Positions 1 to 63,574 of a stretch of 64,000 nucleotides of DNA are shown in pieces. The notes under the pieces were generated by a model. The model was not told where the DNA came from and searched no databases. It worked only from the letters and a program-made list of their open reading frames with translations. The position numbers were made by a program, and so were the translations under genes. Every line of letters starts with the position of its first letter. Position 1 is the first letter of the stretch. Source of the stretch: Onthophagus taurus. Taxonomy: Eukaryota; Arthropoda; Insecta; Coleoptera; Scarabaeidae. The stretch covers positions 1,247,501 to 1,311,500 of the forward strand of contig NC_091971.1 of NCBI RefSeq assembly GCF_036711975.1. Reading direction: 5' to 3'.

Positions 1-2454
1 TATCAGGACAAGGTCGTGTAATTTATCCTGTGTAGTTATGATGGTTAAAAAAATGTTTTTAAGGGATGATTTTTTTAATTAATTTATTAATTACACTTTT
101 TTCTATCAACAAATTATTATTAGTCTGGTGTAATAATAATAATTGGTCGTCGTCAGACAATGCAAACCGACGTTTTTATCTTTTATTATGCTAACGAAGA
201 CAAAGAACTCAACGTCCGTACATAATTTACTCTGTTCACGTACCCTCCAATGTCAGCATCATTACAATGAACAGACCGTTTTATGAGTAGGAAGAATTGT
301 GGTGTTGTGATGATTATGTCGTATGTTTTGTTCAATTTTGTCTCTATGGAAGTCGTTCGACTTGTTAAGCACGATTGTAAACGCGATTAGATTTAAATGT
401 TTGCATGGTTTCGTCATCATTTCTATAAAGTTAAAACCCTATTACTGTCTTATTAAAATTATGGGGATCGTTATGTTCTCTCTACATAGGAGAACAACTG
501 TTGGTAAAGTTTACTCGTTAAAACTTTGCTTAATTGGAACAAAGAGGAGATTTAAGTTAGAGAAACGAATTTTTTTGTTACATCATATTCACATGAAATA
601 TATGATTCAAAAAACTTTATTTGAAAAAATCTATGTTTTAAATTATAACTAAACTTTATATAACTGTTTTTATAACCGATGAGGAATCCTTGTGTGATTC
701 AATGAGTGAAAGAATTTTTTCTAAGAAAGTGTAGGAGTAATAATTCTTGACCTAACACTAAAATGACACATTTTTTTATGTTTTGATACTCCTTGTATTT
801 ATTTCAAGGTTCTTATCTTAAATAAAACACAAAATAATAATCCACGGGTACCAATTATGTTATATAATCATTTTTTCTTGTTTTGTTTGATTCAATGTAT
901 AAAAAAAAAATAAACCTGTATAGTTTTCGCATCGTAGAATAATCGTGGTTGAAATTGCACGGTTGGATTATTCTTTGGATGGTTGCATCAATGATATGAA
1001 TAGGTGCATCTGTCACTACCCGCTCACCTAATAATAATGGTCGGTGGCTTGAGGAAAAAAATGTCACGACTACAATAGAGTATTTATGACAATAGACACG
1101 CATCAAGGTTCTATGAAAAATACGAACCCGGAAATGATGATGATGATGATGAACCAAACGAAAAAATCCTTGGTATATTCGCCCAACTGAGGATGTAATA
1201 AAACAATTAAAATAACTTAATGACTTTATGAATTATAATTCAATTTTGTACATGTTAAGTAAACTTTGATTAACTGTTTATTTAAACTAAACATTACTTT
1301 AACTTAAAAATCACGCAATGTCACAATACATGTGGATTAACTTTTTATTCTGTGCATGATCAAGGATGTTAGGGGAAAAAAATTTTTATTTTTTCGTTGT
1401 GTAATATGAAAACAACAATAGTTTACGTCGTTCAGAATATTTAATTATGTTGTTTACTTGTATTTAATTAAAAATTTCAACTGTGCATACAACAACCTTG
1501 ATGATGAAGTGATTTGCGAGAATTTTATTCCAAAATATAATGACCAATATAAAAATTAAAAAATAAACATAAAATATTAAATTATTTAAAACGCAATGTT
1601 TAGAATACAATGGATTTCAATAGTAAATCTAAAACTTGCGGAGATAACAACGTTACACGAATGGAATATCGTATCGAGTTGATTTATACATTTATTGTAC
1701 TATTTACTTCTCCACGAATCCACATGAATTTAAACCTCCCTCTGGAGAGAGCAATACCAAACATTATTTGAACTCATTTTAACCATTTACATAAACTCAA
1801 TTTAGGGCGATTCCAATTTACGGTTTTAATCATTTCGAAAACTCATCAACAAATTGATGTAAACCATATGTGTTAGTCAATACAAAGAGACCGACCATCA
1901 TGATATTATTGTAATGCAATTCATATGTGTAGATACACATATTAGATTAACTAGGACTAGAGACTGAATTATTTGGTTGTTGATCTTACGATCTCATAAA
2001 TTTATCACAATAACGTCAATGTCGATTATTGCGCAGCACTAAAAGACCGGGTTTGTTTGTTAAATGATTAATTTTAATGATGCAGGTAGATTTCGAAATT
2101 GGTGTTACTATCGCGAGTTGTTTTCTGGTTCAAGGTGGGTTCCCATTTTTTTATCATGAATAAACTTGAATTGATTTTTTTTTATAGGGGAACTTTTTAT
2201 AAAAGTTCAATGTCGAATATACACGAGATTGGAACATTTTAGAACAAAAGTTTTTGTATAAAAGTTGTAGTAAACTTATTTTTTAACAATATTGCTCTTT
2301 TACACTTTTGTTATTACAGTTAGATGCTTTCCATCAGATATTATTCGTCAAAATCGGTTCTCATGTTATAATCATAATACTGTACGTGCAAAATTCTATA
2401 TAATTAGGGGATAGAACTAGAAAGTATCGGGTTTGGACCAAAAATGCAGACAAA
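1..2454. other. AT-rich non-coding stretch
   Basis: I find no supportable gene here. Open frames are short and broken by stops. A short GAT microsatellite lies near 1136-1151 and accounts for a histidine-rich open frame on the other strand. A degenerate fragment resembling the CTAGAAC palindrome family (around 2408-2435) comes just before the satellite array. The missing first exon of the metalloproteinase downstream could be here, but I could not recognise a signal-peptide exon. Confidence 0.5.
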
Positions 2455-5400
2455 ATTGATTTTTTTAATAATTGACATTCAAATGTCATTTCGACGTTTA
2501 CAAATCACAATACATTTCCCTGAAATGGTACCAACCTAAACTTTTGGGAATCTTTTGATGAATGTCTGATATTTCTTATCAATTTTTTTATAACTTTTAT
2601 GATATATCAGTATATTTCGCCACTTTTAATATTTCACAAAGATTGCTTTCATCAAATTAACTGATTTTTGAGTTCTTTTAATATCTACTTTCTTTAACGA
2701 TGTTGACGTTTAATTGTCAAGTTGACGTTTAAAAGTCAAACAATATTTTTATGTACAGATCATTTCGCAATAATGGTGTTCATTATTTCATTCTGATAAA
2801 TGCTATAGTTTTCCATTTTCTATCCAACTTTCTTATCGATATTTTATTTTTCTTGTTCTATTTATAACCCTTTTTGATTTTTTTAATAATTTTAACATAC
2901 AAATGTCATCTTAACGTTTAAACGTCATTTTGACATTTAAAAACCACAACACATAACCCTAAAATCGTACCAACCTAAATTTTTAGAAATGTTTGATGAA
3001 TATCGAATATTTCATACCAGTTTTTCTATAACTTTTTTGATTTATTGTAATATATTTCGTTAATTTTAGTATTTCCATAAGATTTTTTAAATTAAATTAA
3101 CGGATTTTTGAGTTTTTTAAGATCTAGATTTTAACGATATTGATGTTTAATTGTCAAATTGACGTTTAACAGTCAAATAACTGTGACTGTAAAGTTATTA
3201 GTTATTAAACTTAAAATTTGTTATAAGAACATTATTGTTTAATATTTTGTATTAAATCATTATAACTTATCCCATTTTTATCATAGGCTCAGATACTTGA
3301 GGAACTACTAAAACTAGAACTAACACTAAACTAGAACAAGAATCATTCGGGTTTAGCCCTGCGTCTAGGTTTAGTCGCGTTTTAGTTCTAGTGTTAGTTC
3401 TAATGCTAGTTCTTGAATGATTGACATTCAAATGTCATCTCAACGTTTAAACGTCATTTCGACGTTTACAAATCACAATACATATCCGTGAAATGGTACC
3501 AACCTAAATTTTTGGAAATCTTTAGATGAATGTTTAATATTTCTTATCAATTTTTTATAACTTTTATGATATATCAGTATATTTCGCCACTTTTAATATT
3601 TCACAAAGATTGTTTTCATCAAATTAACTGATTTTTGAGTTTTTTTAATATCTACTTTCTTTAACGATGTTGACGTTTAATTGTCAAGTTGACGTTTAAA
3701 AGTCAAACAATATTTTTTATGTACAGATCATTTTGCAATAATGGTGTTCATTATTTCATTCTGATAAATGCTATAGTTTTCCATTTTCCATCCAACTTTC
3801 TTATCGATATTTTATTTTTCTTGTTGTATTTATAACCCTTTTTGATTTTTTTAATAATTTTGACATACAAATGTCATCTTAACGTTTAAACGTCATTTTG
3901 ACATTTAAAAACCACAAGACATATCCCTAAAATCGTACCAACCTAAATTTTTAGAAATGTTTGATGAATATCGAATATTTCATACCAGTTTTTCTATAAC
4001 TTTTTTGATTTATTGTAATATATTTCGTTAATTTTAGTATTTCCATAAGATTTTTTAAATTAAATTAACGGATTTTTGAGTTTTTTAAGATTATAACGAT
4101 ATTGATGTTTAGTTGTCAAATTGACGTTTAACAATCAAATAACTGTGACTGTAAAGTTATTAGTTATTAAACTTAAAATTTGTTATAAGAACATTATTGT
4201 TTAATTTTTTGTATTAAATTATTATAACTTATCCCATTTTTATCATCGGCTCAGATACTTGAGGAACTACTAAAACTAGAACTAACACTAAACTAGAACA
4301 AGAATCATTCGGGTTTAGCCTTGCGTCTAGGTTTAGTCGCGTTTTAGTTCTAGTGTTAGTTCTAATGCTAGTTCTTGAATGATTGACATTCAAATGTCAT
4401 CTTAACGTTTAAACGTCATTTCGACGTTTACAAATCACAATACATATCCGTGAAATGGTACCAACCTAAATTTTTGGAAATCTTTTGATGAATGTCTGAT
4501 ATTTCTTGCCAATTTTTTTATAACTTTTATGATATATCAGTATATTTCGCCACTTTTAATATTTCACAAAGTTTTTTTTCATCAAATTAACTGATTTTTG
4601 AGTTTTTTTAATATCTACTTTCTTTAACGATGTTGACGTTTAATTGTCAAGTTGACGTTTAAAAGTCAAACAATATTTTTATGTACAGATCATTTTGCAA
4701 TAATGGTGTTCATTATTTCATTCTGATAAATGCTATAGTTTTCCATTTTCCATCCAACTTTCTTATCGATATTTTATTTTTCTTGTTCTATTTATAACCC
4801 TTTTTGATTTTTCTAATAATTTTGACATTCAAATGTCATCTTAACGTTTAAACGTCATTTTGATATTTAAAAACCACAACACATATCCCTAAAATCGTAC
4901 CAACCTAAATTTTTAGAAATGTTTGATGAATATCGAATATTTCATACGTTTTTCTATAACTTTTTTGATTTATTGTAATATATTTCGTTAATTTTAGTGT
5001 TTCCATAAGATTTTTTAAATTAAATTAACGGATTTTTGAGTTTTTTAAGATCTAGATTTTAACGATATTGATGTTTAATTGTCAAATTGACGTTTAAAAG
5101 TCAAATAACTGTGACTCTGTAAAGTTATTAGTTATTAATTATTAAACTTAAAATTTGTTATAAGAACATTATTGTTTAATTTGTTGTATTAGATCATTAT
5201 AACTTATCCTATTTTTATCATAGGCTCAGATACTTGAGGAACTACTAAAACTAGAACTAACACTAGACTAGAACAAGAATCATTCGGGTTTAGCCTTGCG
5301 TCTAGGTTTAGTCGCGTTTTAGTTCTAGTGTTAGTTCTAATGCTAGTTCTTGAATGATTGACATTCAAATGTCATCTTAACGTTTAAACGTCATTTCGAC

Positions 5401-8160
5401 GTTTACAAATCACAATACATATCCGTGAAATGGTACCAACCTAAATTTTTGGAAATCTTTTGATGACTGTCTAATATTTCTTATCAATTTTTTATAACTT
5501 TTATGATATATCAGTATATTTCGCCACTTTTAATATTTCACAAAGATTGTTTTCATCAAATTAACTGATTTTTGAGTTTTTTTAATATCTACTTTCTTTA
5601 ACGATGTTGACGTTTAATTGTCAAGTTGACGTTTAAAAGTCAAACAATATTCTTTATGTACAGATCATTTTGCAATAATGGTGTTCATTATTTCATTCTG
5701 ATAAATGCTATAGTTTTCCATTTTCCACCCAACTTTCTTATCGATATTTTATTTTTCTTGTTCTATTTATAACCCTTTTTGATTTTTTTAAATAATTTTG
5801 ACATACAAATGTCATCTTAACGTTTAAACGTCATTTTGACATTGAAAAACCACAACACATATCCCTAAAATCGTACCAACCTAAATTTTTAGAAATGTTT
5901 GATGAATATCGAATATTTCATACCAGTTTTTCTATAACTTTTTTGATTTATTGTAATATATTTCGTTAATTTTAGTATTTCCATAAGATTTTTTAAATTA
6001 AATTAACGGATTTTTGAGTTTTTTAAGATCTAGATTTTAACGATATTGATGTTTAATTGTCAAATTGACGTTTAACAGTCAAATAACTGTGACTCTGTAA
6101 AGTTATTAGTTATTAAACTTAAAATTTGTTATAAGAACATTATTGTTTAATTTTTTGTATTAAATCATTATAACTTATCCCATTTTTATCATAGGCTCAG
6201 ATACTTGAGGAACTACTAAAACTAGAACTAACACTAAACTAGAACAAGAATCATTCGGGTTTAGCCTTGCGTCTAGGTTTAGTCGCGTTTTAGTTCTAGT
6301 GTTAGTTCTAATGCTAGTTCTTGAATGATTGACATTCAAATGTCATCTTAACGTTTAAACGTCATTTCGACGTTTACAAATCACAATACATATCCGTGAA
6401 ATGGTACCAACCTAAATTTTTGGAAATCTTTTGATGAATGTCTGATATTTCTTATCAATTTTTTATAACTTTTATGATATATCAGTATATTTCGCCACTT
6501 TTAATATTTCACAAAGATTGTTTTCATCAAATTAACTGATTTTTGAGTTTTTTTAATATTTACTTTCTTTAACGATGTTGACGTTTAATTGTCAAGTTGA
6601 CGTTTAAAAGTCAAACAATATTTTTTATGTACAGATCATTTTGCAATAATGGTGTTCATTATTTAATTCTTATAAATGCTATAGTTTTCCATTTTCCATC
6701 CAACATTCTTATCGATATTTTATTTTTCTTGTTCTATTTATAACCCTTTTTGATTTTTTTAATAATTTTGACATACAAATGTCATCTTAACGTTTAAACG
6801 TCATTTTGACATTTAAAAACCACAACACATATCCCTAAAATCGTACCAACCTAAATTTTTAGAAATGTTTGATGAATATCGAATATTTCATACCAGTTTT
6901 TCTATAACTTTTTTGATTTGTTGTAATATATTTCGTTAATTTAGTATTTCCATAAGATTTTTTAAATTAAATTAACGGATTTTTGAGTTTTTTAAGATCT
7001 AGATTTTAACGATATTGATGTTTAATTGTCAAATTGACGTTTAACAGTCAAATAACTGTGACTCTGTAAAGTTATTAGTTATTAAACTTAAAATTTGTTA
7101 TAAGAACATTATTGTTTATTTTTTTGTATTAAATCATTATAACTTATCCCATTTTTATCATAGGCTCAGATACTTGAGGAACTACTAAAACTAGAACTAA
7201 CACTAGACTAGAACAAGAATCATTCGGGTTTAGCCTTGCGTCTAGGTTTAGTCGCGTTTTAGTTCTAGTGTTAGTTCTAATGCTAATTCTTGAATGATTG
7301 ACATTCAAATGTCATCTTAACGTTTAAACGTCATTTCGACGTTTACAAATCACAATACATATCCGTGAAATGGTACCAACCTAAATTTTTGGAAATCTTT
7401 TGATGACTGTCTGATATTTCTTATCAATTTTTTATAACTTTTATGATATATCAGTATATTTCGCCACTTTTAATATTTCACAAAGATTGTTTTCATCAAA
7501 TTAACTGATTTTTGAGTTTTTTTAATATCTACTTTAACGATGTTGACGTTTAATTGTCAAGTTGACGTTTAAAAGTCAAACAATATTTTTATGTACAGAT
7601 CATTTCGCAATAATAGTTTTCCATTTTCCATCCAACTTTCTTATCGATATTTTATTTTTCTTGTTCTATTTATAACCCTTCTTGATTTTTTTTAATAATT
7701 TTGACATACAAATGTCATCTTAACGTTTAAACGTCATTTTGACATTTAAAAATCACAACACATATCCCCAAAATCGTACCAACCTAAATTTTTAGAAATG
7801 TTTGATGAATATCGAATATTTCATACCAGTTTTTCTATAACTTTTTTGATTTATTGTAATATATTTCGTTAATTTTAGTATTTCCATAAGATTTTTTAAA
7901 TTAAATTAACGGATTTTTGAGTTTTTTAAGATCTAGATTTTAACGATATTGATGTTTAATTGTCAAATTGACGTTTAAAAGTCAAATAACTGTGACTCTG
8001 TAAAGTTATTAGTTATTAAACTTAAAATTTGTTATAAGAACATTATTGTTTAATTTTTTGTATTAAATCATTAAAACTTATCCCATTTTTATCATAGGCT
8101 CAGATACTTGAGGAACTACTAAAACTAGAACTAACATTAGACCTAGAACTAAAAACATTT
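2455..8160 (+). repeat. Higher-order tandem array, unit about 965 bp, each with a palindrome
   Basis: The dyad GACATTCAAATGTC recurs at 2474, 3423, 4385, 5360, 6331 and 7300, spaced 949-975 bp apart. Each unit holds two diverged monomers: A with GACATTCAAATGTC and B with GACATACAAATGTC about 440 bp later. Both contain ACGTTTAAACGTCAT, a TACCAACCTAAATTTTT block and the paired motif GTTGACGTTTAATTGTCAA. A roughly 120-bp imperfect palindrome of CTAGAACTAACACTA type follows (for example 3301-3420 and 4262-4380). Units are near-identical apart from small indels and point changes. The array ends at 8110-8160 in half a palindrome. It is non-coding. The monomer-palindrome order matches the single diverged copy at 23.98-25.08 kb, so this looks like amplification of a mobile unit rather than an unrelated satellite. 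Confidence 0.9.
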
Positions 8161-8165
8161 AGACA

Positions 8166-8253
8166 TGTTGCATTTTATGTGGGACAAAGTAAGTATGTGG
8201 AAATATATTTTTGTATATTCCATTTTAACTGAAATTCACTGTATAAACTAAAA
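8166..8253 (+). repeat. Conserved terminal segment of the palindrome element
   Basis: This stretch runs from ACATGTTGCATTTTATGTGG to GAAATTCACTGTATAAA. It matches the reverse complement of 53553-53641, where it also directly adjoins a CTAGAAC palindrome. The outer edge (CAGTGAATTTCA followed by TA when read inward) looks like the end of a TA-targeting DNA transposon. It therefore probably marks one end of the element from which the array grew. Confidence 0.6.
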
Positions 8254-10086: not shown

Positions 10087-13000
10087 GTTTACCTTTCTCA
10101 ATACGGATACGTATCTAGCGGGAATCTTATGAATTCTAGTAGGTTACTAGACGGATCGATATTAAAACAAGCCATAGAAGAATTTCAAAGCTTTGCGGGA
10201 CTTGCAGTAACAGGTAAAACAAATATATTTTTTTTTATCTACTTAAAAACATTTTTAGATTCTTGATTAGTTTTCTATTTTTATTATTATTATTATTAAC
10301 TATGTTTATTATTAATTTTCTTTGATTTATAGGTGAAATGGACGAAGAAACTGAATCTGTGATGAAATTACCTAGATGTGGTGTCAAAGATAAAGTTGGA
10401 TCTGGAAGTGATTCTCGATCAAAAAGATACGCTTTGCAAGGTAAAAAATAGTCTTCATTAAATTTTTGTAAAGTTTAAATTCACAATCACTCTTTACGTA
10501 ATGTGGGGCGATTAATTTTATTGAAACCCGCATAAATTTTTGCTTACAAATCAATCTAAAAGGGAAGTTTAAACCTGGAGATCTCGGAAACCATCTAATA
10601 GAACTATTTGTACCAGTCCACCTTGCTGGAAATGTTCGGTTCAAGTACTCCATCGTTACTCGTGCATTAAGCGATGATGCACGATTTTGTAGAAACCATA
10701 TTGTTGTTTGTAATCGGTTTTGCAAATCATTTAGACTTCAAGAAAATTATTTTGAAAGAATTTTGCATAACCATCAGTATTAAGATAAAAATGCGACATT
10801 TTCATGTACAATCAATAAAATTTGATAATGGGAGCTTGCTTCATATACAAAATTATAAAACCAAGTTAACTTAAGGATTTATAAAAAGTAGAAGAAAGAT
10901 ATCCAGCAATTATAGCTGGCAGAATTAAAAATAGAATTTTATTAATACAATATGAAGCTATCATATAGTCAACTATTTAACTTATTATCATTAACTTTTG
11001 CAATTTAACTTTAATAGATTTTTGAAAATGTCTAATTAGTAGGGCACGCAACTTTTGTAACAAAACAATACGATTTCCCCCCTCCACTCGTTCTCAGCAG
11101 AAAATTTCATACAAAAGTTGTTCTAAATTAAATTCTAAAACGATTTTCTCAAAAAAAAATATATATAAAAATATATATATAAAAATTTTTTTGAGATTAT
11201 GTTCTTAATTATTGATCAAATCAAAAATTTTTATTAACAATATTTGTTTAGAATTACTTCAGGAACAGCGTTTGTTAATAAAATTTTTTGCTAACTTGAA
11301 ATTTTAATTTCCCTCTGAATAGTATGCTATCAAAATTAATTATCTCAACAATTATTGTTTTTATTAAAAAATGTTTTAAATAAAATTTGTTTCAATTTCG
11401 ATTTTGAATCAATTATCTTAATAAAAAATTTTTACATCTCTATTAATTAAGCATCGAATTATAATTATGTATAAAAACAGAAAAATTATTATTTTGAGGT
11501 TATCTCCTTAATTATTGATTAAATCAAAAAAAGTTGTTGACAAAGTTTGTTTAGAATTGTTTCAGGAACAATTTTTGTTAACACAATTTTTTTCTAACTT
11601 GAAATTTTAATTTCCCACTGAACAGTATGCTACAAAAATTAATATTTTTGAGGTTATATTCTTATTGTTGATTTAATCAAAAAATGTTGTTAACAAAATT
11701 GGTTTAGAATTACTTCAGGAACAGTGTTTGTTAATAAAATTTTTTGCTAACTTGAAATTTTAATTTCTCTCTGAATAGTATGCTATCAAAATTAATTATC
11801 TCAACAATTATTGTTTTTATTAAAAAATGTTTTAAATAAAATTTGTTTCAATTTCGATTTTGAATCAATTATCTTAATAAAAAAATTTTACATCTCTATT
11901 AATTAAGCATCTAATTATAATTATGTATAAAAACAGAAAAATTATTATTTTGAGGTTATCTCCTTAATTATTGATTAAATCAAAAAAAGTTGTTGGCAAA
12001 GTTTGTTTAGAATTGTTTCAGGAACAATTTTTGTTAACACAATTTTTTTCTAACTTGAAATTTTAATTTCCCACTGAACAGTATGCTACAAAAATTAATA
12101 TTTTTGAGGTTATATTCTTATTGTTGATTTAATCAAAAAATGTTGTTAACAAAATTGGTTTAGAATTACTTCAGGAACAGTGTTTGTTAATAAAATTTTT
12201 TGCTAACTTGAAATTTTAATTTCCCTCTGAATAGTATGCTATCAAAATTAATTATCTCAACAATTATTGTTTTTATTAAAAAATGTTTTAAATAAAATTT
12301 GTTTCAATTTCGATTTTGAATCAATTATCTTAATAAAAAATGTTTACATCTCTATTAATTAACCATCTAAGTGTAATTATGTATAAAAATTTAAAAATTA
12401 TTATTTTGAGGTTATCTCCTTAATTATTGATTAAATCAAAAAAAGTTGTTGGCAAAGTTTGTTTAGAATTGTTTCAGGAACAATTTTTGTTAACACAATT
12501 TTTTTCTAACTTGAAATTTTAATTTCCCACTGAACAGTATGCTACAAAAATTAATATTTTTGAGGTTATATTCTTATTGTTGATTTAATCAAAAAATGTT
12601 GTTAACAAAATTGGTTTAGAATTACTTCAGGAACAGTGTTTGTTAATAAAATTTTTTGCTAACTTGAAATTTTAATTTCCCTCTGAATAGTATGCTATCA
12701 AAATTAATTATTTCAACAATTATTGTTTTTATTAAAAAATGTTTTAAATAAAATTTGTTTCAATTTCGATTTTGAATCAATTATCTTAATAAAAAATTTT
12801 TACATCTCTATTAATTAACCATCTAAGTGTAATTATGTATAAAAATTTAAAAATTATTATTTTGAGGTTATCTCCTTAATTATTGATTAATGCAAAAAAA
12901 ATTGTTGGCAAAGTTTGTTTAGAATTGTTTCAGGAACAATTTTTGTTAACACAATTTTTTTCTAACTTGAAATTTTAATTTCCCACTGAACAGTATGCTA

Positions 13001-16000
13001 CAAAAATTAATATTTTTGAGGTTATATTCTTATTGTTGATTTAATCAAAAAATGTTGTTAACAAAATTTGTTTAGAATTACTTCAGGAACAGTGTTTGTT
13101 AATACAATTTTTTGCTAACTTGAAATTTTAATTTCCCTCTGAATAGTATGCTATTAAAATTAATTATCTCAACAATTATTGTTTTTATTAAAAAATGTTT
13201 TAAATAAAATTTGTTTCAATTTCGATTTTGAATCAATTATCTTAATAAAAAATTTTTACATCTCTATTAATTAAGCATCTAATTATAATTATGTATAGAG
13301 ACAGAAAAATTATTATTTTGAGGTTATCTCCTTAATTATTGATTAAATCAAAAAAAGTTGTTGACAAAGTTTGTTTAGAATTGTTTCAGGAACAATTTTT
13401 GTTAACACAATTTTTTTCTAACTTGAAATTTTAATTTCCCACTGAACAGTATGCTACAAAAATTAATATTTTTGAGGTTATATTCTTATTGTTGATTTAA
13501 TCAAAAAATGTTGTTAACAAAATTTGTTTAGAATTACTTCAGGAACAGTGTTTGTTAATAAAATTTTTTGCTAACTTGAAATTTTAATTTCCCTCTGAAT
13601 AGTATGCTATCAAAATTAATTATCTCAACGATTATTGCTTTTATTAAAAAATGTTTTACATAAAATTTGTTTCAATTTCGATTTTGAATCAATTATCTTA
13701 ATAAAAAATTTTTACATCTCTATTAATTAACCATCTAAGTGTAATTATGTATAAAAATTTAAAAATTATTATTTTGAGGTTATCTCCTTAATTATTGATT
13801 AAATCAAAAAAAGTTGTTGGTAAAGTTTGTTTAGAATTGTTTCAGGAACAATTTTTGGTAACACAATTTTTTTCTTACTTGAAATTTTAATTTCCCACTG
13901 AACAGTATGGTATTCTTTTAATCAAGATTTTCTGAGAACGAGTGGAGGGGGGAAATCGTTTTGTTACAAAAGTTCCGTGCCCTGCTAATTATCACCAAAA
14001 ATATGCAAAAACCGATATTATTAAACTTGTATTTTTATCATAGATAAACATCAAATTATTCCGGAAGTTATTTTTAAATAAAATCATGTTGTTTTCAATT
14101 TAACAGTTTTTTATGTTTTAACTAACACATAAATAATAAAATCTGTCCGGGAATAAATAGGAAAAGAGAAACAAAATTGAAATGGACATTGCGTTCTCAT
14201 TCATGTGAAGTGGTGACATTGGTTTTAACATTTGGTCAATGTCTATCAACTCTCTGATATGACTAACAACTGCGATCGATGTACTTCCGTAATTACTCCC
14301 GGTGAAATACCTAGTTGACATTAAAGGGCAATTTTTGAATTTTTCAAACGCTTGATTCATTTCAAATTCGTGCTTCATTTCCGGATTCACTATTTTTTTT
14401 TTCTATTCTCTTCCAATCGATTCAATTTTTTTTAGAGGAGTTAATTAATAGCCGCTCATTGTTAGCCGTTTCCCAATTCATTTTATGATTCTGACAGTTA
14501 AACATGTACAATACTTTTTTATTTTACCTTTCATTCAGTGAAAAATGATTCAATAAATTTTTATTTTTTATATTTTTTAGGGAGTAGATGGAAGATAAGA
14601 AATTTATCTTATAGAATAACCAAGTATCCAGTAAATGTACCTAAAGATGAGGTCGATAATGAGATACAAAGAGCCTTTGACGTTTGGTCCGATCACACAG
14701 ACTTGACATTTAAGCAAATGAGAAGGGGTTCGGTAAACATTGAAATTAAATTTGAGAAGGGAGAGCATGGAGATGGGGATCCCTTCGATGGTCCTGGTGG
14801 AACTTTAGCCCACGCTTATTTTCCAGTAAGTAAATAATCTTACTCTAAACTATCTGAACTTGGGGAAATTTTATCTCATTGGGTCAAGTTTTTTTGGAGA
14901 TAACCCATTTATTTGGCTAATAATTTTTGTTTTATCTAAGGTTTTTGGAGGTGATGTTCATTTTGATGCTGCTGAACAATGGACCATTAATAAATACAGT
15001 GGGACCAACCTTTTCCAAGTAGCGGCTCATGAAATCGGTCATTCTTTAGGTTTAAGTCACACTGATGTAAAAAATGCTTTAATGGCACCATTTTATCGAG
15101 GTTATCAACCTTATTTCGTATTAGATTCCGATGATATTTCGGGAATTCAAAGACTATATGGTGGAAAAACTACTGTGACTGCTTCCCCACCGGCAGATAG
15201 AGACGACAAAGAGGGTACACCAACGAATATTTCACCTGACGAACAAATTTTGTGCAAAGACCCAAAAATCGATGCAATTTTCCAAAGCGCCGAAGGAAAT
15301 ACTTATGTGTTTAAAGGAAATCAATATTGGAGGTTAAACGATCAAAGTATAGATCCTGGATATCCAAAATTAATCGCAAGTGGATGGCCTGGGCTACCTG
15401 GAGATATAAGTTCAGCTTTTACTTATAAAAATGGGAAAACTTATTTCTTTAAGGGTACAAAATATTGGAGATATAATGGGCGAAGAATGGATGGGGATTA
15501 TCCTAAAGATATATCGTCTGGTTTTGCTGGAATTCCCGATGATATTGATGCCGCTATGGTTTGGAGTGGAAATGGAAAAATTTATTTCTTCAAAGGTACA
15601 TATTTATTTTTTTTTTGTTCAATATAGAATTATTTTATTTTAGGTAGTAAATTTTGGCGTTTCGATCCAATGCAACGCCCACCAGTAAAAAGTACCTATC
15701 CAAAACCAATTTCAAATTGGGAGGGAATACCAAATAATCTCGACGATGCTTTCCAATACTCAAACGGTTACACGTACTTCTACAAAAATGGAGCTTATTA
15801 TAGATTCAACGATCGCGCGTTTGCCGTGGATGCAGCAACTCCAGCTTTCCCAAGATCAGCAGCTTATTATTGGTTCGGGTGTCAATCGGCACCTACAGGA
15901 ACCATAGGTACACCAATATACAAAGAAGGGCTACATGAAGGGGACGATGACGGCTACGATTCATTCGATGCAGGTAGGAATGACGTCTGATGATTCAATA

Positions 16001-23289: not shown

Positions 23290-25860
23290 ACTAAGGGGAG
23301 TGGCCCCACTCATCACCGCGACCTATAGGATCTATTGTAACTTTAGCCCTCCAGTTTAGGGCAAATGTAGGTCCTTAGTATTGCTCCAAGGTCTTGTGCA
23401 ATTACACAGTATATGTTCAGCCATTTCTGACTCGTCGTTGTAGAGTCAGGAAACCTGAGAGCGTCCTTAGATCTCCTTTGCTGAGGTATAAAACCTCTTT
23501 GGTTTTGTTTTGCGACGCAGTTATCATGCTCTTCGCTTGTCTGTGACCTAGAAGTTCTTTCCAGCGTAAGGCTACCTTTGAGCTCTCCCAACTGTTGATT
23601 ACCTGTTTTAGGTGTCTTTTTTTGTAGTCCACAACCAGGTTGGGGTCCAATGAGGGGCGTTTTCGCTGCCTCTTTGGCCAGCTTGTTTGTCTTCTCATTG
23701 CTCTCAATGTTTCTGTGACCTAGAATCCACCATAGAGTAACATTGTTGCCCCTAGCGAGTTCTCTCAGGTTGCTGGTATTGTTTGATCAGTGCGGAGTCA
23801 CACGTGTAGTGACACACGTGTCAAAATGTTTATGGATGCACCTTTCTGTCGCTTTTGTATGTTCAAATCGGTGCAGAGGTTTATAGCAAACATTTCTGCT
23901 TGAAAATGGTTATGTCCAAGCTGAGGGGCAATTTAAAGCTGCTATTTGGTCCAGTAATGCTCATGATAGTTTTAGTTTTAGCTGTGATTCAGTGCTAGGT
24001 TGTATATTTTTATGGAACTAACACTAGAACTAGAAACATTCGAGTTTAGCCGTCTAAAGAGAGGTACGGCTAAATCCGAATGTTTCTAGTTCTAGTGTTA
24101 GTTTTGATGTCAGAACTAAAACTAGAACTTTTACTCTAGAACTAGAAACCGTTAGATTGTTGTATATTTTTATTAAACTGATGCTAAATTCTGATTTTTT
24201 AAATGATTTTGACATACAAAATGTCATCGTAACGTTAAACGTCATTTTGACGTTTAAATTTACAACACATTTTCCTAAAATGATACCAACCTAAATTTTT
24301 GGAAATCTTTTGATGAATGTCGAATATTTCTTACCAGTTTTTTCATAACTTTTTTAATTTATAGTATTTCACTACTTTTAATATTGTAATAAGATTTTTT
24401 TTCATGAAATTAACTGATTTTTAATTTTTTTTAATATCTACTTTTTTTAAACTAAATTCTGATTTTTTAAATGATTTTGACATACAAAATGTCATCGTAA
24501 CGTTAAACGTCATTTTGACGTTTAAATTTATAACACATTTTCCTAAAATGATACCAACCTAAATTTTTGGAAATCTTGATGAATATCGAAGATTTCTTAC
24601 CAATTTTTTCATAACTTTTTTGATTTATAGTATTTCGTTACTTTTAATTTTATTAAAATAAGATCTTTTTTCATCAAATTAACTGATTTTTGAGTTTTTT
24701 TAATATCTACTTTTTTTAACGATGTTGACGTTTAATTGTCAAATTGACGTTTAAAAGTATATTTTTACATATTTTTAGTCAACTAAAACTAGAACTAACA
24801 CTAGACCTAGAACTAGAAACATTCGGGTTTAGCCGTGCGTCTCTCAAGACGGCTACACCCGAATGTTTCTAGTTCTATGTCTAGTGTTAGTTCTAGTTTT
24901 AATTCAATAAAAATACGCAACATAGTGATATCTAATGCTAATTGTCACTAGAACTAACATCAGACCTGGAACGCCTGGAACTAGAAATACTCAAGTTTAA
25001 CCGTCTTAAGACACGCATAGCTAAACGATATGTTTCTAGGCTTAGTACTAGTGTTAGTCTAGTTTTATTTGTTATTCAGTACTAGATAGTCCATAACCGG
25101 GTTGGGGTCCAATGAATGCCTCTTTAGCCAGCTTGGCCGGCTTCTCATTACCCTCAATGTTTCTGTGACCTAGAACCCACCATGGAGTAACATCATTACT
25201 CCTAGCGAGGTCTCTCAGGTTGATGGTACACTGATCAGTGCGGAGTCACACGTGTAAACCTGAATTGCCTTTAGGGCGGCCAGATAGTCTGTGAAAATGT
25301 TTATGGATACACCTTTCTGTCCATTTTGTAGGTTCAAAGCGGTGCAAAAGTTTATAGCAAGTATTTTTGCTTGAAAAATGGTTATGTTCGAGCTGGTCTA
25401 CTAATGCCCATGTCTCTGGATCCAATTGTTTTTGAAGTATCCGTGTACCTGGCGAGGGCTCCTCTTTTTAGTTGAGGCCCACCCTTCGTCCAATCATCCC
25501 TGCTTCTAAATATAACCTTATACGGCTGGTCGAAATTGTATTCTGTCGGTATAAGGTTCGTTTTAATTTCAATCAAGTGATTTAGACATAGTTCCTTGAG
25601 GATTTCGAGGTGTCGTCTGAGGTTACCCTGCATGAGCTTGAGTGAAGAGCCTGTTTTCAGAGATAGGGCACTTAAAGTTGCCTCCTTTTGTATATATAAA
25701 TGAAGTGGTGTGAAAAGGAGTATTTCGATTTTGTTTGGATTGATGCCGAGTCCATTGCTTCTACACCAAGTGCTGGTTAGTACTACGGCTTTCTGAATCA
25801 TGAATCCATTTTGAAGAGGTGAGAGCACTCCCCCTTAGGGATATCCTCTTAACGAATAGT
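23290..25860 (-). pseudogene. Decayed LOA/I-like LINE (RT end and RNase H), split by repeats
   Basis: On the minus strand, 25382-25830 encodes the end of a reverse transcriptase (GLGINPNKIEILLFTP). It is followed by an RNase H segment with WWVLGHRNIEGNEK and IGPQPG near 25090-25200. A second copy of this RNase H segment lies at 23640-23790 and continues to the 3' region (SKGDLRTLSGF near 23470). The two RNase H copies form a direct repeat flanking 23.98-25.08 kb. Many stops and frameshifts are present. The same family occurs in + orientation at 43.2-44.1 kb. Confidence 0.75.
23985..25085. repeat. Palindrome - two monomers - palindromes: single diverged copy of the 2.4-8.2 kb unit
   Basis: Palindromes at about 24015-24165, 24781-24905 and 24945-25080 show CTAGAACTAACACTAGACC arms around a CATTCGGGTTTAGCCGT loop half. 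Between the first two lie two monomers (24180-24470 and 24465-24775). These contain GACATACAAAATGTCATCG, ACGTCATTTTGACGTTTAAA and ATACCAACCTAAATTTTTGG, recognisably the A/B monomers of the 965-bp array. The block interrupts a LINE. Confidence 0.8.
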
Positions 25861-28479: not shown

Positions 28480-31335
28480 CTTCAATTACATGATAACTAA
28501 CATCAGGTTTAAAATGTCAACCTCAATTTTGACATATTTGTAATCTTCATTAAAAATCCTTTAAAATGAGTACAAACACGACATATTTATCTTCAATATT
28601 AATGAAATTATGATCAACTTCCGGTTAAGAATGTCAACGTCAATTTTGACATATTTGTAATCGTCGTGAAAAATCCTTTAAAATGAGTCCAAACATGATA
28701 CGTTTAATTCCAATATTACTCGAGATATACGCAACTTCCCATTTGAAATGTCAATGTCATTTTGACATATTCTTAATTTTTATAAAATGTCTTAATATTT
28801 GTCACAAAAATAAAAATATAATAAAAAAAATAAATAATTAAGGTTGGTATTAATATTTAAAAATTAAATTACCATCTTCATTGTTGCTAACTTCAAGTTT
28901 AAAATGTCAACGTCAATTTTGACATATTTGTAATCGTCGTGAAAAATCCTTTAAAATGAGTCCAAACATGATACGTTTAATTCCAATATTACTCGAGATA
29001 TAAGCAACTTCCGGTTTGAAATGTCAATGTCATTTTGACATATTCTTAATTTTTATAAAATGTCTTAATATTTGTCACAAAAATAAAAATATAATAAAAA
29101 AAATAAATAATTAAGGTTGGTATTAATATTTAAAAATTAAATTGCCATCTTCATTGTTGCTAACTTCAGGTTTAAAATGTCAACCTCAATTTTGACATAT
29201 TTGTAATCTTCATTAAAAATCCTTTAAAATGAGTACAAACACGACATATTTATCTTCAATATTAATGAAATTATGGTCAACTTCCGGTTAAGAATGTCAA
29301 CGTCAATTTTGACATATTTGTAATCGTTGTGAAAAATCCTTTAAAATGAATCCAAACATGATACGTTTAATTCCAATATTACTCGAGATATACGCAACTT
29401 CCGGTTTGAAATGTCAATGTCATTTTGACATATTCTTAATTTTTATAAAATGTCTTAATATTTGTCACAAAAATAAGAATATAATAAAAAAAATAAATAA
29501 TTAAGGTTGGTATTAATATTTAAAAATTAAATTGCCATCTTCATTGTTGCTAACTTCAGGTTTAAAATGTCAACCTCAATTTTGACATATTTGTAATCAT
29601 CATTAAAAATCCTTTAAAATGAGTACAAACACGACATATTTATCTTCAATATTAATGAAATTATGGTCAACTTCCGGTTAAGAATGTCAACGTCAATTTT
29701 GACATATTTGTAATCGTCGTGAAAAATCCTTTAAAATGAGTCCAAACATGATACGTTTAATTCCAATATTACTCGAGATATAAGCAACTTCCGGTTTGAA
29801 ATGTCAATGTCATTTTGACATATTCTTAATTTTTATAAAATGTCTTAATATTTGTCACAAAAATAAAAATATAATAAAAAAAAAATAATTAAGGTTGGTA
29901 TTAATATTTAAAAATTAAATTGCCATCTTCATTGTTGCTAACTTCAGGTTTAAAATGTCAACCTCAATTTTGACATATTTGTAATCTTCATTAAAAATCC
30001 TTTAAAATGAGTACAAACACGACATATTTATCTTCAATATTAATGAAATTATGGTCAACTTCCAGTTAAGAATGTCAACGTCAATTTTGACATATTTGTA
30101 ATCGTCGTGAAAAATCCTTTAAAATGAGTCCAAACATGATACGTTTAATTCCAATATTACTCGGGATATAAGCAACTTCCGGTTTGAAATGTCAATGTCA
30201 TTTTGACATATTCTTAATTTTTATAAAATGTCTTAATATTTATCACAAAAATAAAAATATAATAAGAAATAAATAATTAAGGTTGGTATTAATATTTAAA
30301 AATTAAATTGCCATCTTCATTGTTGCTAACTTCAGGTTTAAAATGTCAACCTCAATTTTGACATATTTGTAATCTTCATTAAAAATCCTTTAAAATGAGT
30401 ACAAACACGACATATTTATCTTCAATATTAATGAAATTATGCTCAACTTCCGGTTAAGAATGTCAACGTCAATTTTGACATATTTGTAATCGTCGTGAAA
30501 AATCCTTTAAAATGAGTCCAAACATGATACGTTTAATTTCAATATTACTCGAGATATAACATTTGAAATGTCAATGTCATTTTGACATTCTTAATTTTTA
30601 TAAAATGTCTTAATATTTATCGCAAAAATAAAAATATAATAAAAAAAATAAATAATTAAGGTTGGTATTAATATTTAAAAATTAAATTGCCATCTTCATT
30701 GTTGCTAACTTCAGGTTTAAAATGTCAACCTCAATTTTGACATATTTGTAATCTTCATTAAAAATCCTTTAAAATGAGTACAAACACGACATATTTATCT
30801 TCAATATTAATGAAATTATGGTCAACTTCCGGTTAAGAATGTCAACGTCAATTTTGACATATTTGTAATCGTCGTGAAAAATCCTTTAAAATGAGTCCAA
30901 ACATGATACGTTTAATTCCAATATTACTCGAGATATACGCAACTTCCGGTTTGAAATGTCAATGTCATTTTGACATATTCTTAATTTTTTTAAAATGTCT
31001 TAATATTTGTCACAAAAATAAAAATATAATAAAAAAAATAAATAATTAAGGTTGGTATTAATATTTAAAAATTAATTGCCATCTTCATTGTTGCTAACTT
31101 CGGGTTTAAAGTTTTTTTATTCTAACTTTTTTGTTTTTTGAGATAAGTGCGTCATCTTTGGACTCATTTTAAAGGTTTTTTAATAAAGATGATAAATATG
31201 TCAAAATTGACGTTGACGTTTCAAACCGGAAGTGATTGTATTTCCATTAATATTAAAGTTGAATACGTCGAGTTTGGACTCATTTTAAAGGATTTTTTAT
31301 GAAGTTGACAAATATGTCAAAATTAAAAGTTGAAG
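28480..31335. repeat. Tandem array, unit about 389 bp, with an inverted terminal copy
   Basis: The marker TTTAAAATGTCAAC recurs at 28508, 28898, 29171, 29561, 29949, 30337 and 30716, and as a partial match at 31105. The steps are 390, 273, 390, 388, 388, 379 and 389; the 273-bp step is one shortened unit. Each unit has dyads such as GTCAACGTCAATTTTGACAT and AATGTCAATGTCATTTTGAC, plus AAGGTTGGTATTAAT. From about 31140 to 31335 the sequence turns round (TTTGGACTCATTTTAAAGG is the inverse of CCTTTAAAATGAGTCCAAA), so the array ends as a palindrome. It is non-coding. Confidence 0.9.
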
Positions 31336-48089: not shown

Positions 48090-50516
48090 TAGTGATGGAA
48101 CGGATAGTGATTTTGGCCATTATGGTTGTAATTTCTGGTGCATATCTGAAGTGATATCCTACATTGCCACATTATTGCGGTATTTGAATAAAAATGAAAT
48201 TAATAAGAAAGCTGATAAGATATGTCAACTTATTTGGATCCAAGATACAAAATGAACTTTTTTAACTAACGAACCAACTCTAAAGAGAGAACACTTTAAT
48301 TAATAATAGGCGATATTTCCACAAGGATCCTTCAAGAAATTAATTTTATAACAAATTTTGTAATTATCGATGAAAATTACAACATCGAAAATTTTATCAA
48401 AACTTCAAATATTGTTTTCTCAAAAACTAAAAGTTATTTTTCAAAACGGGTTGGTTCATTGGAAAGAGAACACTTTTATTAACACTTTGAGAAATGTTCG
48501 TATTCATATTCCAAGAAATGGATTTTATACGAATTTTTAAAACTTAATCGGCGAAAATTGAAAAATTCGAAACAATTGTCGATCATTTTAAAAATTTATT
48601 TCTCAAGAACTGAAAGTGATTTTTGAAAACGGCTTGTTGCATTAAAAAGAGCACACTTTAATTCATAATTGGTGATATTTCCACAAGGATCCTTCAAGAA
48701 ATTAATTTTATAGCGAATTTTGCAAATTATCGATGAAAATTGCAACATCGAAAATTTTATCAAAACTTCAAATATTGTTTTCTCAAAAACTAAAAGTTAT
48801 TTTTCAAAACGGGTTAGTTCATTGGAAAGAGGACACTTTTATTAATTCTTTGGGAAATTTTCATATTCATATTCCAAGAACTGGATTTTATACGAATTTT
48901 TAAAACTTAATCGGCGAAAATTGAAAAATACGAAGAAAAAGTCGATCATTTCAAAAATTTATTTCTCAAGAACTGAAAGTGATTTTTGAAAACGGCATTT
49001 TGCATCAAAAAGAGGACACTTTAATTCATAATTGGTGATATTTCCACAAGGATCCTTCAAGGAATTAATTTTATAGCGAATTTTGCAAATTATCGATGAA
49101 AATTGCAACATCGAAAGTTTTATCAAAACTTCAAACATTGTTTTCTCAAAAACTAAATGTTATTTTTCAAAACGTGTTAGTTCATTGGAAAGAGGACGCT
49201 TTTTTTAACATTTTGAGAAATTTTTATATTCATATTCCAAGAAATGGATTTTATACGAATTTTTAAAACTTAATCGGCGAAAATTGAAAAATACGAAGAA
49301 AAAGTCGATCATTTCAAAAATTTATTTCTCAAGAACTGAAAGTGATTTTTGAAAACGGCTTGTTGCATTAAAAAGAGGACACTTTAATTCATAATTGGTG
49401 ATATTTCCACAACGATCCTTCAAGGAATTAATTTTATAGCAAATTTTGTAATTATCGATGAAAATTACAACACCGAAACTGTTATCAAAACTTCAAACAT
49501 TGTTTTCTCAAAAACTAAATGTTATTTTTCAAAAACGTGTTAGTTCATTGGAAAGAGGACGCTTTTTTTAACATTTTGGGAAATTTTCATACTCGTATTC
49601 CAAGAAATGGATTTTATACGAATTTTTAAAACTTAATCGGCGAAAATTGAAAAATTCGAAAAATGTCGATCATTTCAAAAATTTATTTCTCAAGAACTGA
49701 AAGTGATTTTTGAAAACGGCTTTTTGCATTAAAAAGAGGACACTTTAGTTCATAATTGGTGATATTTCCACAAGGATCCTTCAAGAATTGAATTTTATAG
49801 CGAATTTTAAAAGTTATCGATGAAAATTACAACATCGAAAATTTTATCAAAACTTCAAATATTGTTACCTCAAAAACTAAAAGTTATTTTTCAAAACGGG
49901 TTGGTTCGTTGGAAAGAGGGCACTTTTATTAACACTTTGGGAAATTTTCATATTCATATTCCAAGAAGTGGATTTTATACGAATTTTTAAAACTTAATCG
50001 GCGAAAATTGAAAAATACGAAGAAAAAGTCGATCATTTCAAAAATTTATTTCTCAAGAACTGAAAGTGATTTTTGAGAACGGCTTTTTGCATTAAAAAGA
50101 GGACACTTTAATTCATAATTGGTGATATTTCCACAAGGATCCTTCAAGGAATTAATTTTATAGCGAATTTTGCAAATTATCGATGAAAATTGCAACATCG
50201 AAAATTTTATCAAAACTTCAAATATTGTTACCTCAAAAACTAAAAGTTATTTTTCAAAACGGGTTAGTTCATTGGAAAGAGGACACTTTTATTAACGCTT
50301 TGGTAATTTTCATACTCATATTCCAGGAAATGGATTTTATACGAATTTTTAAAACTTAATCGGAGAAAATTGAAAATTTCGAAAAAATTGCAACAAGAGA
50401 TTTTATATATCGTCAAATATCGGATATTTGATAACTATCTGGTATCCAGCCGGATTTTCATAAATGGCCGGATAGGCCGGATACCGGATAGTTGCCGAAT
50501 ATCCATTCCACCACTA
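48090..50516. mobile_element. hAT-like element with an internal 362-bp tandem array
   Basis: The left end TAGTGATGGAACGGATA is the inverted match of the right end, which reads TAGTGGTGGAATGGATA inward from 50516. An 8-bp target duplication, GCGTAGAT / GTGTAGAT with one mismatch, flanks it (48082-48089 and 50517-50524). The length is 2427 bp. Inside, GATATTTCCACAAGGATCC or a close variant recurs at 48312, 48674, 49037, 49400, 49761 and 50124 (steps 361-363). There is no transposase. The right subterminal region has CCGGATA repeats (50430-50500), usual for hAT ends. It splits a jockey-type LINE. Confidence 0.88.
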
Positions 50517-53545: not shown

Positions 53546-53552
53546 TAAGATT

Positions 53553-53737
53553 TATACAGTGAATTTCACTTAAGATGCAATATACTAAAATATATTTGTG
53601 TAGAAACAATTTACTTTGTCCCATATAAAATGCAACATGTCAATAAAAATATACAATAATCTACTGCTGAATAACAAATAAAACTAGACTAACACTAGCA
53701 GACATTCCGTTTAGCCATACTCTTAAGACGACTGGTA
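53553..53737. repeat. Conserved element end and half palindrome
   Basis: 53553-53641 is the inverted match of 8166-8253. It is followed by CTACTGCTGAATAACAA and a palindrome arm running to its centre (TTAAGACG, 53724-53731), where another transposon (53738-55864) is inserted. Confidence 0.7.
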
Positions 53738-55864: not shown

Positions 55865-55914
55865 TAGGTAGTAGGTAGCGCTAGCTAGCATAAAATATCA
55901 CTATATTGCATATT

Positions 55915-56670
55915 TTTATTGAACTAAAACTAGAACTAACACTAGACCTAGAACTAGAATCATTCGGGTTTAGCCGTCTTAAGAGACGTGCGGCTAAACC
56001 CGAACGGTTCTAGCTCTAGGTCTAGTGTTAGTTCTAGTTTTAATTCAATACAAATATGCAACATAGTGATATCTTATCTTAACTAGCGCTATCACTAGAA
56101 CTAACATTAGACCAAGAACTAGAATCGTTCGGGTTTAGCCGCACGTCTCTCAAGACGGCTAAACCCGAATGATTCTAGTTCTAGGTCTTGTGTTAGTTCT
56201 AGTGATAGTGCTAGTGTAAAACTAGAAGTAACACTAGACCTAGAACTAGAAAGTATTGCTGTTCGTCTGAAGACGCACGGCTAAACCCGAATATTTCTAG
56301 CTCTAGGTCTAGTGTTAGTTCTAGTTTTAATTCAATACAAATATGCAACATAGTGATATCTTATGTTAACTAGCGCTATCACTAGAACTAACATTAGACC
56401 AAAAACTAGAACCATTGATTGAACCCCGATGATTCTAGTTCTAGATCTTGTGTTAGTTCTAGTGATAGTGCTAGTGTAAAACTAAAACTAACACTAGATC
56501 TAGAACTAAAGTATTTCGGGTTTAGTTGCATGTCTGAAGACTTATAGATGTAACAGTGATATTTAATGCTAACAATGAAAAATATACAACAATCTAACGC
56601 TGAATAACAACTAAAACTAGAGCTAAAACTAGCCCTAGAACTAACACTAGACCTAGAACTAGAAATCTTG
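55915..56670. repeat. Cluster of five to six CTAGAAC palindromes
   Basis: Near-perfect palindromes lie at 55921-56046, 56083-56214, 56215-56333 and 56375-56480, with half copies at 56480-56545 and 56600-56670. The arms read CTAGAACTAACACTAGACC then TAGAACTAGAATCATTCGGG and TTTAGCCG, mirrored around a short TTAAGAGACG centre. They could form hairpins with arms of about 60 bp. Short AT-rich linkers containing CAACATAGTGATATCTTA are themselves repeated. Confidence 0.88.
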
Positions 56671-59560: not shown

Positions 59561-60381
59561 CAGGGTGTCTCAGCGAGACCGGTCATTAGACGTTTCTGGG
59601 GTTCTGGCGAAAATAAAAATTTGAGTACTCTTCGTGTAAAATATTTTCAGATTTCTTGCACTTCCGGTTATACCGGCAGTCGACACCAACTTTATTTTTT
59701 TAAATGCAACCCTGTATATTTTTACATATTTGGATTTGTTTGTTTTCAAGGTTTATAAATAACTTTACTTTTTGCAATTTGATTCTGTCGTTCTCGAGTT
59801 ATTCGAATTTTTCTAGAAAAATCTGCTCCAGCAGACATATGTTCAAAAAATTAGAAAACACTCAATTTTTGGGATATCAATTTAGGATTGAGAACATGCT
59901 TAAGCAACATGATGGAGTATGTTTTGGTGCCGAGAACTGCGGTCTAGAACGTTTGATCACTTTACTATGGCACGTTAACTTTTCAAAATTTGGAAGTACC
60001 ATAACTTCATTTTTTTAAATGGCACCCCCATATTTTATTTTTTAGTCGTCTTCGGTGTCTCATTCTACATCTTTTATATCCCATATGGCCCATACCTAAT
60101 ATTAATAGTTTGGGAGATAATTAGGGTTTTTTGAAAAATGCACACATATCATATGGATATTTAGTCTAGTGTGCCATGAAAAATAAGCCTTCTCAATGAG
60201 TTCTTGTTAAAGACTCACTTGTTTACATCACTTGATGCATGTGAGCTAATAATTATCTGTTATGTCCCTTAATATTAGTACTGAAACGAATTAAAATCAA
60301 TAACAATAACGAAAGTAATTAAACTAAGATTAGAACTAAAACTAGAAACTTTCGGGTTTTGCCGTGCGTCTTTTAATAAAA

Positions 60382-60425
60382 GGTTTGACGTTTCGGATGC
60401 CATGTTGCAACCTTCTTCAGAAACT
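60382..60425 (-). ncRNA. Hammerhead-ribozyme-like motif at the Penelope-like element 3' end
   Basis: On the minus strand, in order: GUUU (stem I), CUGAAGA (60420-60414), stem II AGGUUGC...GCAUCC with one mismatch pair, GAAAC (60394-60390), GUC (60389-60387, cleavage triplet) and AAAC (stem I). This is the type I hammerhead order with a minimal stem III, the form known from Penelope-like elements. Pairing was checked by eye only. Confidence 0.5.
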
Positions 60426-60509
60426 GGTTCGAAGTGACGAGATCAAAAAATCGGTAATTATATATAAGTCGGAAAAACTAATTAATAATCAGTTAACGCT
60501 AATTACTAA

Positions 60510-62752: not shown

Positions 62753-63574
62753 ATCCTTGATTTGTTTGTTGATATCCTCCCCATAAAGGTTAATAATATA
62801 AGTACGAAGGCTTTCACGGCCGGTGTGAATTAAACTAAGATTAGAACTAAAACTAGAACTAACACTAATTCTAGTGTTCTAAATTAGACTTTGACGTTTA
62901 TCAATAAGTCATTAAACATTTGTTTTCCATGGCACACTAGGTTAATATCCATATGATATGTGAGCATTTTTCAAAAAACCCTAATTATTTCTCAAACTAG
63001 TAATGTTAGGCATAGGACATATGGAATATAAAAGATGTAAAATGAGACGCCGAAGACGACTAAGTAATAAAATATGGGGGGTGCCATTTAAAAAAATGAA
63101 GATATGGTGCTGTCAAATTTCGAAAAGTTAACGTATCATAGTAAAGTGACCAAACGATCTAGACAGCCGTTCTCGGCACCAAAACATACTCCACCATGTT
63201 ATTTAAGCGTATTCTGAATCCTAAATTGATAACTCAAAAATTGAGTGTTCTATGATTTTTTGAACAAATGTCCGCTGGAGCAAATATTTCTAGAAAAATT
63301 CGAATAACTCGAGAATTGCTGGTTCAAATTGCAAAAAGTAAAGTTATTTATAAACCTTCAAAACAGACAAATCCAAATATGTAAAAATATACAGGATGTT
63401 CCATTTAAAAAATCAAGTAGGTGGCGACTTCCGGTATAACCGGAAGTGCTAGAAATCTGAAAATATTTTAGATGAAGAGAATGTAATTGATAATACTTAA
63501 GTCTGCATTCTCAAATTTTTTATTTGGCCAGAACCCCAGAAACGTCTAATGACCGGTCTCGCTCAGACACCCTG

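Follow-up and report, generated by a model that had tools for sequence, protein, structure and literature searches.

How does a tandem array of long repeat units, punctuated at regular intervals by palindromes, come to lie in gene-containing DNA? The question is raised by a locus of the beetle Onthophagus taurus, within a stretch of 64,000 nucleotides (NCBI RefSeq assembly GCF_036711975.1, contig NC_091971.1, window C6:1247501-1311500, forward strand) that is referred to here as the window. Near its left end, six units, each made of two related monomers, A and B, follow one another head to tail with a CTAGAAC palindrome between neighbours. A sequence-only reading of this array had proposed that a dispersed palindromic element was amplified as a whole, producing a satellite with regularly spaced potential hairpins. 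Here we argue, at a probability of about three in four, that the six units form a satellite of recent, local origin, which arose within a non-autonomous, foldback-like DNA transposon, referred to below as the carrier. The assembly searched comprises 290.8 Mb in 33 contigs; similarity searches score the best candidates, and the copy numbers they give are first-look counts or lower bounds, whereas pattern counts (a palindrome-arm 16-mer and a 37-mer) cover the whole genome.

Organization of the array

The array spans window positions 2472-8105 and contains six A-B units, five decayed palindromes between the units and half a palindrome at the right edge, all on the forward strand. The whole composite (2412-8241) begins with a palindrome-arm fragment and a short linker (2412-2471) and continues through the six units and five spacers to the half palindrome and a terminal repeat. 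The unit marker GACATTCAAATGTC stands at 2474, 3423, 4385, 5360, 6331 and 7300, exactly where the sequence-only reading had placed it, and its spacings of 949, 962, 975, 971 and 969 bp average 965.2 bp, in agreement with the 965-bp unit proposed there. In unit 1, a monomer A that is shorter near its start (2472-2889) is followed by B (2890-3294) and by the spacer with fused palindrome 1 (3295-3418). The corresponding parts lie at 3419-3857, 3858-4256 and 4257-4380 in unit 2; at 4381-4819, 4820-5231 and 5232-5355 in unit 3, whose two monomers served as queries and whose spacer is the copy tested below as a mosaic of two element ends; at 5356-5795, 5796-6202 and 6203-6326 in unit 4; and at 6327-6765, 6766-7171 and 7172-7295 in unit 5. 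Unit 6 has an A that is about 36 bp shorter (7296-7698) and a B (7699-8105), and the half palindrome that closes the array occupies 8106-8159.

As cut, the units measure 948, 962, 975, 971, 969 and 858 bp, and they are 96.3-98.7% identical pairwise over aligned bases, in addition to differing in length. Monomers A and B are homologous across roughly their first 290 bp and 64-66% identical in an ungapped comparison of 117 nt. The array is thus a higher-order repeat, in which a multimeric unit is repeated head to tail and the units are more alike than the monomers within them. Two regularities claimed for it hold in part: the 440 bp said to separate A and B in each unit is found in units 2-5 (439, 439, 440 and 439 bp between markers), but the distance is 420 bp in unit 1 and 403 bp in unit 6; and the single palindrome said to belong to each unit is seen as five whole copies between units, but there are six units, and the array has a half palindrome at its right edge and an arm fragment at its left.

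The motif CTAGAACTA occurs 37 times in the window, with 0.33 expected. Tandem Repeats Finder lists just inner repeats of 12 and 19 bp and not the array, because its longest period is 500, and a separate repeat search of the window recovered long families with the unit spacings of about 965 bp. No RNA family matched within the window at gathering scores.

The spacer palindromes are fusions of two element ends

Each spacer contains a palindrome, but the in-array palindromes are decayed. The five score 33-36 in self-reverse-complement comparison, where three dispersed copies in the window reach 87-134, and the only in-array one that was folded as DNA (3295-3425) folds weakly, with a z of -4.0, compared with -17.8 for the best dispersed copy in the window (55915-56055). 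The dispersed palindrome, P, is very abundant: its 16-mer arm CTAGTGTTAGTTCTAG occurs exactly 5955 times forward and 5861 times in reverse (11,816 genome-wide), while the reversed control of the arm was found once forward and never in reverse. A similarity search with P gave 2872 first-look candidates, and the places listed from the best 40 scored lie on nine contigs. P is found in tandem and mixed-orientation clusters; one such cluster, with no satellite, lies in the window at 55889-56664 (forward strand; best palindrome 55889-56073).

The composition of the spacer between units 3 and 4 carries the argument for how the array began. Its first part matches three right ends found in other copies (two at locus L009 and one at L010) with 90-93% identity, and all three matches break off where the arm TCTAGTGTTAGTTCTA ends or slightly ahead of that point. 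From that arm onward, the spacer differs by one mismatch in 92 nt from the left end of the copy at L013. The spacer is therefore a mosaic in which the right end of one copy is joined to the left end of another, with the switch inside the 16-nt arm, and the palindrome of the unit is a fusion of two element ends, with a much weaker fold than the dispersed copy that was tested. When up to three mismatches are allowed, a 37-mer of this left end, which reaches from the arm into A, has six genomic occurrences: five in the array and one at L013, where it follows an ordinary palindrome. The mosaic junction was found only in the array: a 155-bp spacer query matched at full length and 98-100% identity nowhere else among the best 40 of 603 candidates.

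These comparisons are numeric; conservation of the outer junctions was read by eye from printed flanks, which were seen in part. Read in this way, the left border at 2412-2471, which is the element's left junction with part of its interior deleted, resembles the sequence upstream of A at L009, L010, L011 and L016 and partly that at L012 and L018, and blastn aligns it over 37 nt to L016 (94.6%) and L011 (89.2%). At several loci, the same sequence transitions lead into A on the left and away from B on the right.

The proposed carrier element and its termini

Outside the palindromes, a pair of related terminal sequences, named X and Y, is found repeatedly. In the copies fetched, the carrier termini are roughly 80-100 bp long and inverted, with CAGTG-like ends beside TA, and CTAGAAC palindrome modules lie just inside them; some carrier copies hold A-type monomers and then a distinct last monomer B between palindrome modules. 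Facing termini enclose P at L034, L035, L052 and L069, and they enclose A-B at L009, where the right terminus is truncated. The copy at L069, about 620 bp long and free of satellite, has type-Y termini at both ends and palindrome arms inside. Features of a foldback-type element are thus present: long inverted termini (L069), repeated modules (the P clusters) and the ability to fold back (z of -17.8).

The array itself adjoins such a terminus. The element continues past the end it had been given in the sequence-only reading, and a type-Y right terminal inverted repeat (8162-8241, forward strand) stands directly after the half palindrome, ends GAAATTCACTG and is followed by TATA; a similar transition from half palindrome to terminus is found at L009. 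It was matched by nhmmer at an E-value of 8.5e-23 by a profile of which this copy is itself one seed (the X/Y profiles in general having been built from some of the loci they later matched), and by blastn to L041, L063, L039, L034 and others. Searched genome-wide, this terminus gave 810 first-look candidates, of which the best 40 were scored. Another type-Y terminus of the same family lies in the window at 53547-53641 on the reverse strand (E-value 1.1e-24, also a profile seed).

TA directly follows 15 of the 22 recognisable termini. Miniature inverted-repeat transposable elements (MITEs) of the Tc1/mariner type duplicate a TA target and have CAGTG-like ends. On these sequence features the carrier would be non-autonomous and foldback-like and would have a TA-type target, and the TA and CAGTG-like ends are the only evidence from which mobilisation by a Tc1/mariner-type transposase may be proposed. 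No longer target duplication, of the 8-10 bp known from the Tetris element discussed below, was noticed by eye in the four facing pairs.

A search for the transposase domain DDE_3 gave 1708 candidates, of which the best 150 were scored. One Tc1-like element, at L075, was considered as a partner of the carrier and set aside: palindromes lie downstream of it, but not within 0.9 kb in three sister copies. Because only one of the four sister copies has palindromes, the L075 element was most likely merely inserted in a P cluster. Two further observations were made on these transposase matches. A Tc1-like family (C1:4955423, C3:4279258 and others) is represented by 17 equal-scoring DDE_3 matches, 15 of them with an open frame of 363 amino acids; over about 600 bp, four of the copies hardly differ, so that the family looks very young. 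On contig C8 (13537644-14040482), eleven DDE_3 matches on one strand, spaced about 36-65 kb apart, suggest a large tandem segmental duplication. As to insertion sites, the short, complete-looking L069 element (C11:30429433-30430249) occupies the centre of a palindrome measuring roughly 2 x 20 bp, and L034 also has near-palindromic flanks, while L035 and L052 do not (all by eye); a preference for palindrome centres is possible.

A and B across the genome

The absence of any other copy in the genome, which the sequence-only reading held would count against it, is not what was found: listed A/B places lie on C6 (1.25-4.3 and 15.3 Mb), C3 (23.3-27.7 Mb) and C11 (33.4 Mb). A search with the entire unit, in which the best 40 of 620 first-look candidates were scored, listed 138 matches, many of them palindrome pieces. 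Among these, no match outside the window exceeds 100 bp at 95% identity or more, and those longer than 300 bp outside that set are 72-92% identical.

These figures bear on the idea that the array is a fragment of a large heterochromatic, for instance pericentromeric, satellite that the assembly fails to show. The assembly may indeed be incomplete, and the searches score best candidates only. However, the long arrays and high copy number expected of such a satellite were not found: there are six units here, and first-look candidates in the 290.8 Mb number 77 for monomer B, 56 for the final 180 bp of A and 101 for an A piece of the type found near 24 kb in the window (best 40 scored each). The long arrays that had been suspected elsewhere are likewise missing among the listed genome matches of the unit, none of which is long and closely similar outside the window, and gene-coding frames lie 6.6-14 kb from the array. 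We regard a heterochromatic origin as highly improbable.

Instead, A and B form a small dispersed family that mostly adjoins the abundant palindrome P. In a survey of the window and 30 fetched loci, in which monomers were named A or B by best match to those of this array, 54 A/B blocks were delimited. Of the 54, 46 have P or a spacer palindrome no more than 200 bp away on one side or both, and 24 have one on both sides; without the six array blocks, the counts are 40 and 19 of 48. An exact P arm lies within 500 bp of 23 of the 48 blocks, against 1.9 expected from the mean arm density of the genome, an expectation that ignores regional clustering and counts exact copies of one arm motif only. 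In each of the 23 blocks where A and B occur together, the final monomer is B.

Other copies differ in their internal repeats. L027 contains nine A-type monomers at a spacing of about 266 bp, and L013, L017 and L019 contain runs of three or four A. L025 is a second, smaller palindrome-punctuated run, with three B-palindrome units, the last two 94.6% identical over 538 bp and the first 80%. A second copy in the window (24015-25070, forward strand) consists of palindromes flanking two A-type monomers (24209-24767); it lies between direct copies of another repeat-like stretch (23700-23800 and 25138-25250, by eye), a setting that looks as if inside a duplicated fragment. In a tree of 90 monomers, from which 36 short ones were left out and in which many nodes are weak, the six array B monomers form one clade (0.99) beside B of L010, and the six array A monomers cluster with the first A monomers of L013 and L012 (0.89).

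Weighing the origin of the array

Could A and B simply be an independent satellite, in or beside which palindromes were inserted by preference, with no carrier? P is very abundant and also occurs without A or B (L032, L069), and a Tc1-like element has itself most likely landed in a P cluster. On the other hand, the left and right junctions recur at different loci, B invariably comes last in blocks with both monomers, and the three other satellite arrays in the window lie 9.7, 3.4 and 4.1 kb from the nearest P. We consider an independent satellite unlikely.

It is important to stress that several observations weigh against a carrier-borne origin. Eight of the 54 A/B blocks have no palindrome within 200 bp, which is also what an independent satellite would allow. 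Seven of the 22 termini have no TA directly after them (two of the seven have it after one extra base), TA is found on both sides in only two of the four loci with facing termini (L034 and L035), and a two-base duplication is weak evidence anyway. The profile search found no left terminus for the window copy, which is therefore not a complete element; a relaxed 16-mer match left of the array, at 1604 (three mismatches, the only one), was dismissed as chance. No autonomous partner was found, and none of 15 sampled DDE_3 loci has an X or Y terminus on its 3' side (about 0.9-1.0 kb). L009 and L010 share 238 bp at 82% identity outside the terminus, and segmental duplication may also spread copies. 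Finally, the first A of L013 is nested among the array A monomers (0.76), and the array A monomers are thus not a clade of their own.

With these reservations, birth of the array inside the carrier is most simply explained by two steps. In the first, an exchange inside the 16-nt palindrome arm would have fused the right end of one copy with the left end of a second, yielding an A-B-palindrome unit; the junction can be read directly in the spacer, and the exchange is the event that would have made it. In the second, in-register unequal exchange would have brought the unit to six copies, since the units are 96-99% identical and the mosaic was seen only here. What was amplified would then be an internal module (A, B and the fused palindrome): the dispersed palindromic element of the sequence-only reading was involved and its palindrome amplified together with the satellite, but not the element as a whole. 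The hairpins would be inherited from the transposon, and a function of their own was neither tested nor seen.

An A-B-palindrome circle could also have been amplified, by rolling-circle replication or as extrachromosomal DNA, and reinserted at a palindrome by recombination. Such a history would suit an array that both starts and ends in palindrome-arm sequence and has no left terminus. Yet unit 1 has a left junction of the kind found in other copies, and unit 6 passes into the right terminus as at L009; because both transitions are kept, expansion at the site itself is a better fit than the arrival of a circle, which we judge to be quite improbable.

A broader reading is tentative, and we hold it to be rather doubtful: the abundant palindromic, foldback-like family, with on the order of 10^4 arms, might provide crossover points throughout the genome and systematically seed palindrome-punctuated satellites. 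Because each palindrome holds its arm both ways, tandem duplications could then arise by recombination between two neighbouring copies in any orientation. If this were true, the six-unit array and the three-unit run at L025 would be cases caught early.

Genomic setting

The array lies in gene-containing DNA. A Pfam scan of ten window frames identified one with hemopexin and matrixin (a matrix metalloproteinase, MMP), one Hus1 and one glycosyltransferase 90 (GT90); four others matched reverse transcriptase or RNase H, and three had no match. Between 40001 and 44000, the window shows extreme GC skew (0.38-0.45) and AT skew (0.19-0.21) along a stretch that contains reverse-transcriptase frames. 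At 60000-63120, reverse-transcriptase-like frames, presumably Penelope-like (two frames tested have no Pfam match), lie between directly oriented palindrome-arm sequences, and the stretch is bounded by inverted flanks near 60.0-60.3 and 62.9-63.1 kb (both by eye). Two further arrays, at 11184-13913 and 28509-31110, are satellites with periods of 456 and 388 bp, the second with GTCAACGTCAATTTTGAC-like motifs that, by eye, echo the A/B monomers. A 363-bp satellite at 48281-50387 has a consensus like a stretch at L070 that resembles part of a hAT-type transposase gene (by eye), and it was possibly made from coding sequence.

Relation to known systems

Among the papers listed by literature searches, made by topic and not by sequence, no title or abstract opening names this palindrome or array. 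To our knowledge, Helentrons lack inverted termini beside TA, which the carrier described here has. In this it differs from Cg_HINE, the non-autonomous Helentrons of the Pacific oyster, to which it is otherwise similar in that short dispersed satellite arrays correspond to the central repeats of the element (PMC7492417).

The nearest parallels come from elements with inverted repeats. In Drosophila virilis, arrays of the TIR-220 satellite grew within the foldback transposon Tetris, which, like the carrier, is non-autonomous and has long inverted repeats and variable internal tandem repeats (PMC4079207). Tetris differs in its 8-10-bp target duplications and in having its repeats in the inverted arms, whereas in the array carrier TA stands beside the termini, the satellite lies between palindrome modules, and the amplified unit includes a fused palindrome. 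Similarly, in the TCAST transposon-like elements of the beetle Tribolium castaneum, which lie in euchromatin close to genes and have been compared with mariner/Tc1, sequence related to a satellite is found inside an element bounded by terminal inverted repeats, but there satellite segments make up part of the inverted repeats themselves, and the duplicated target is ACT (PMC3411249). In Xenopus, the Tc1/mariner MITE miDNA4 has an internal satellite of variable copy number, whose expansion via short direct repeats flanking the satellite has been proposed, and Xstir is a further case of a satellite growing within a mobile element (reviewed in PMC12628747). The flanking homology in miDNA4 is an AT-rich microhomology, as opposed to the 16-nt arm of an abundant palindrome found here.

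Overall, it is already known that satellites arise from within mobile elements, and the special value of the present case is its readable founding junction. Satellite origins are usually inferred from old, homogenised arrays. Here the junction can be placed to within 16 nt, both parental ends have relatives at other loci of this genome, and the array, set in gene-containing DNA, still has no more than six units, so that the route by which a transposon gives rise to a satellite becomes testable at the level of single bases.

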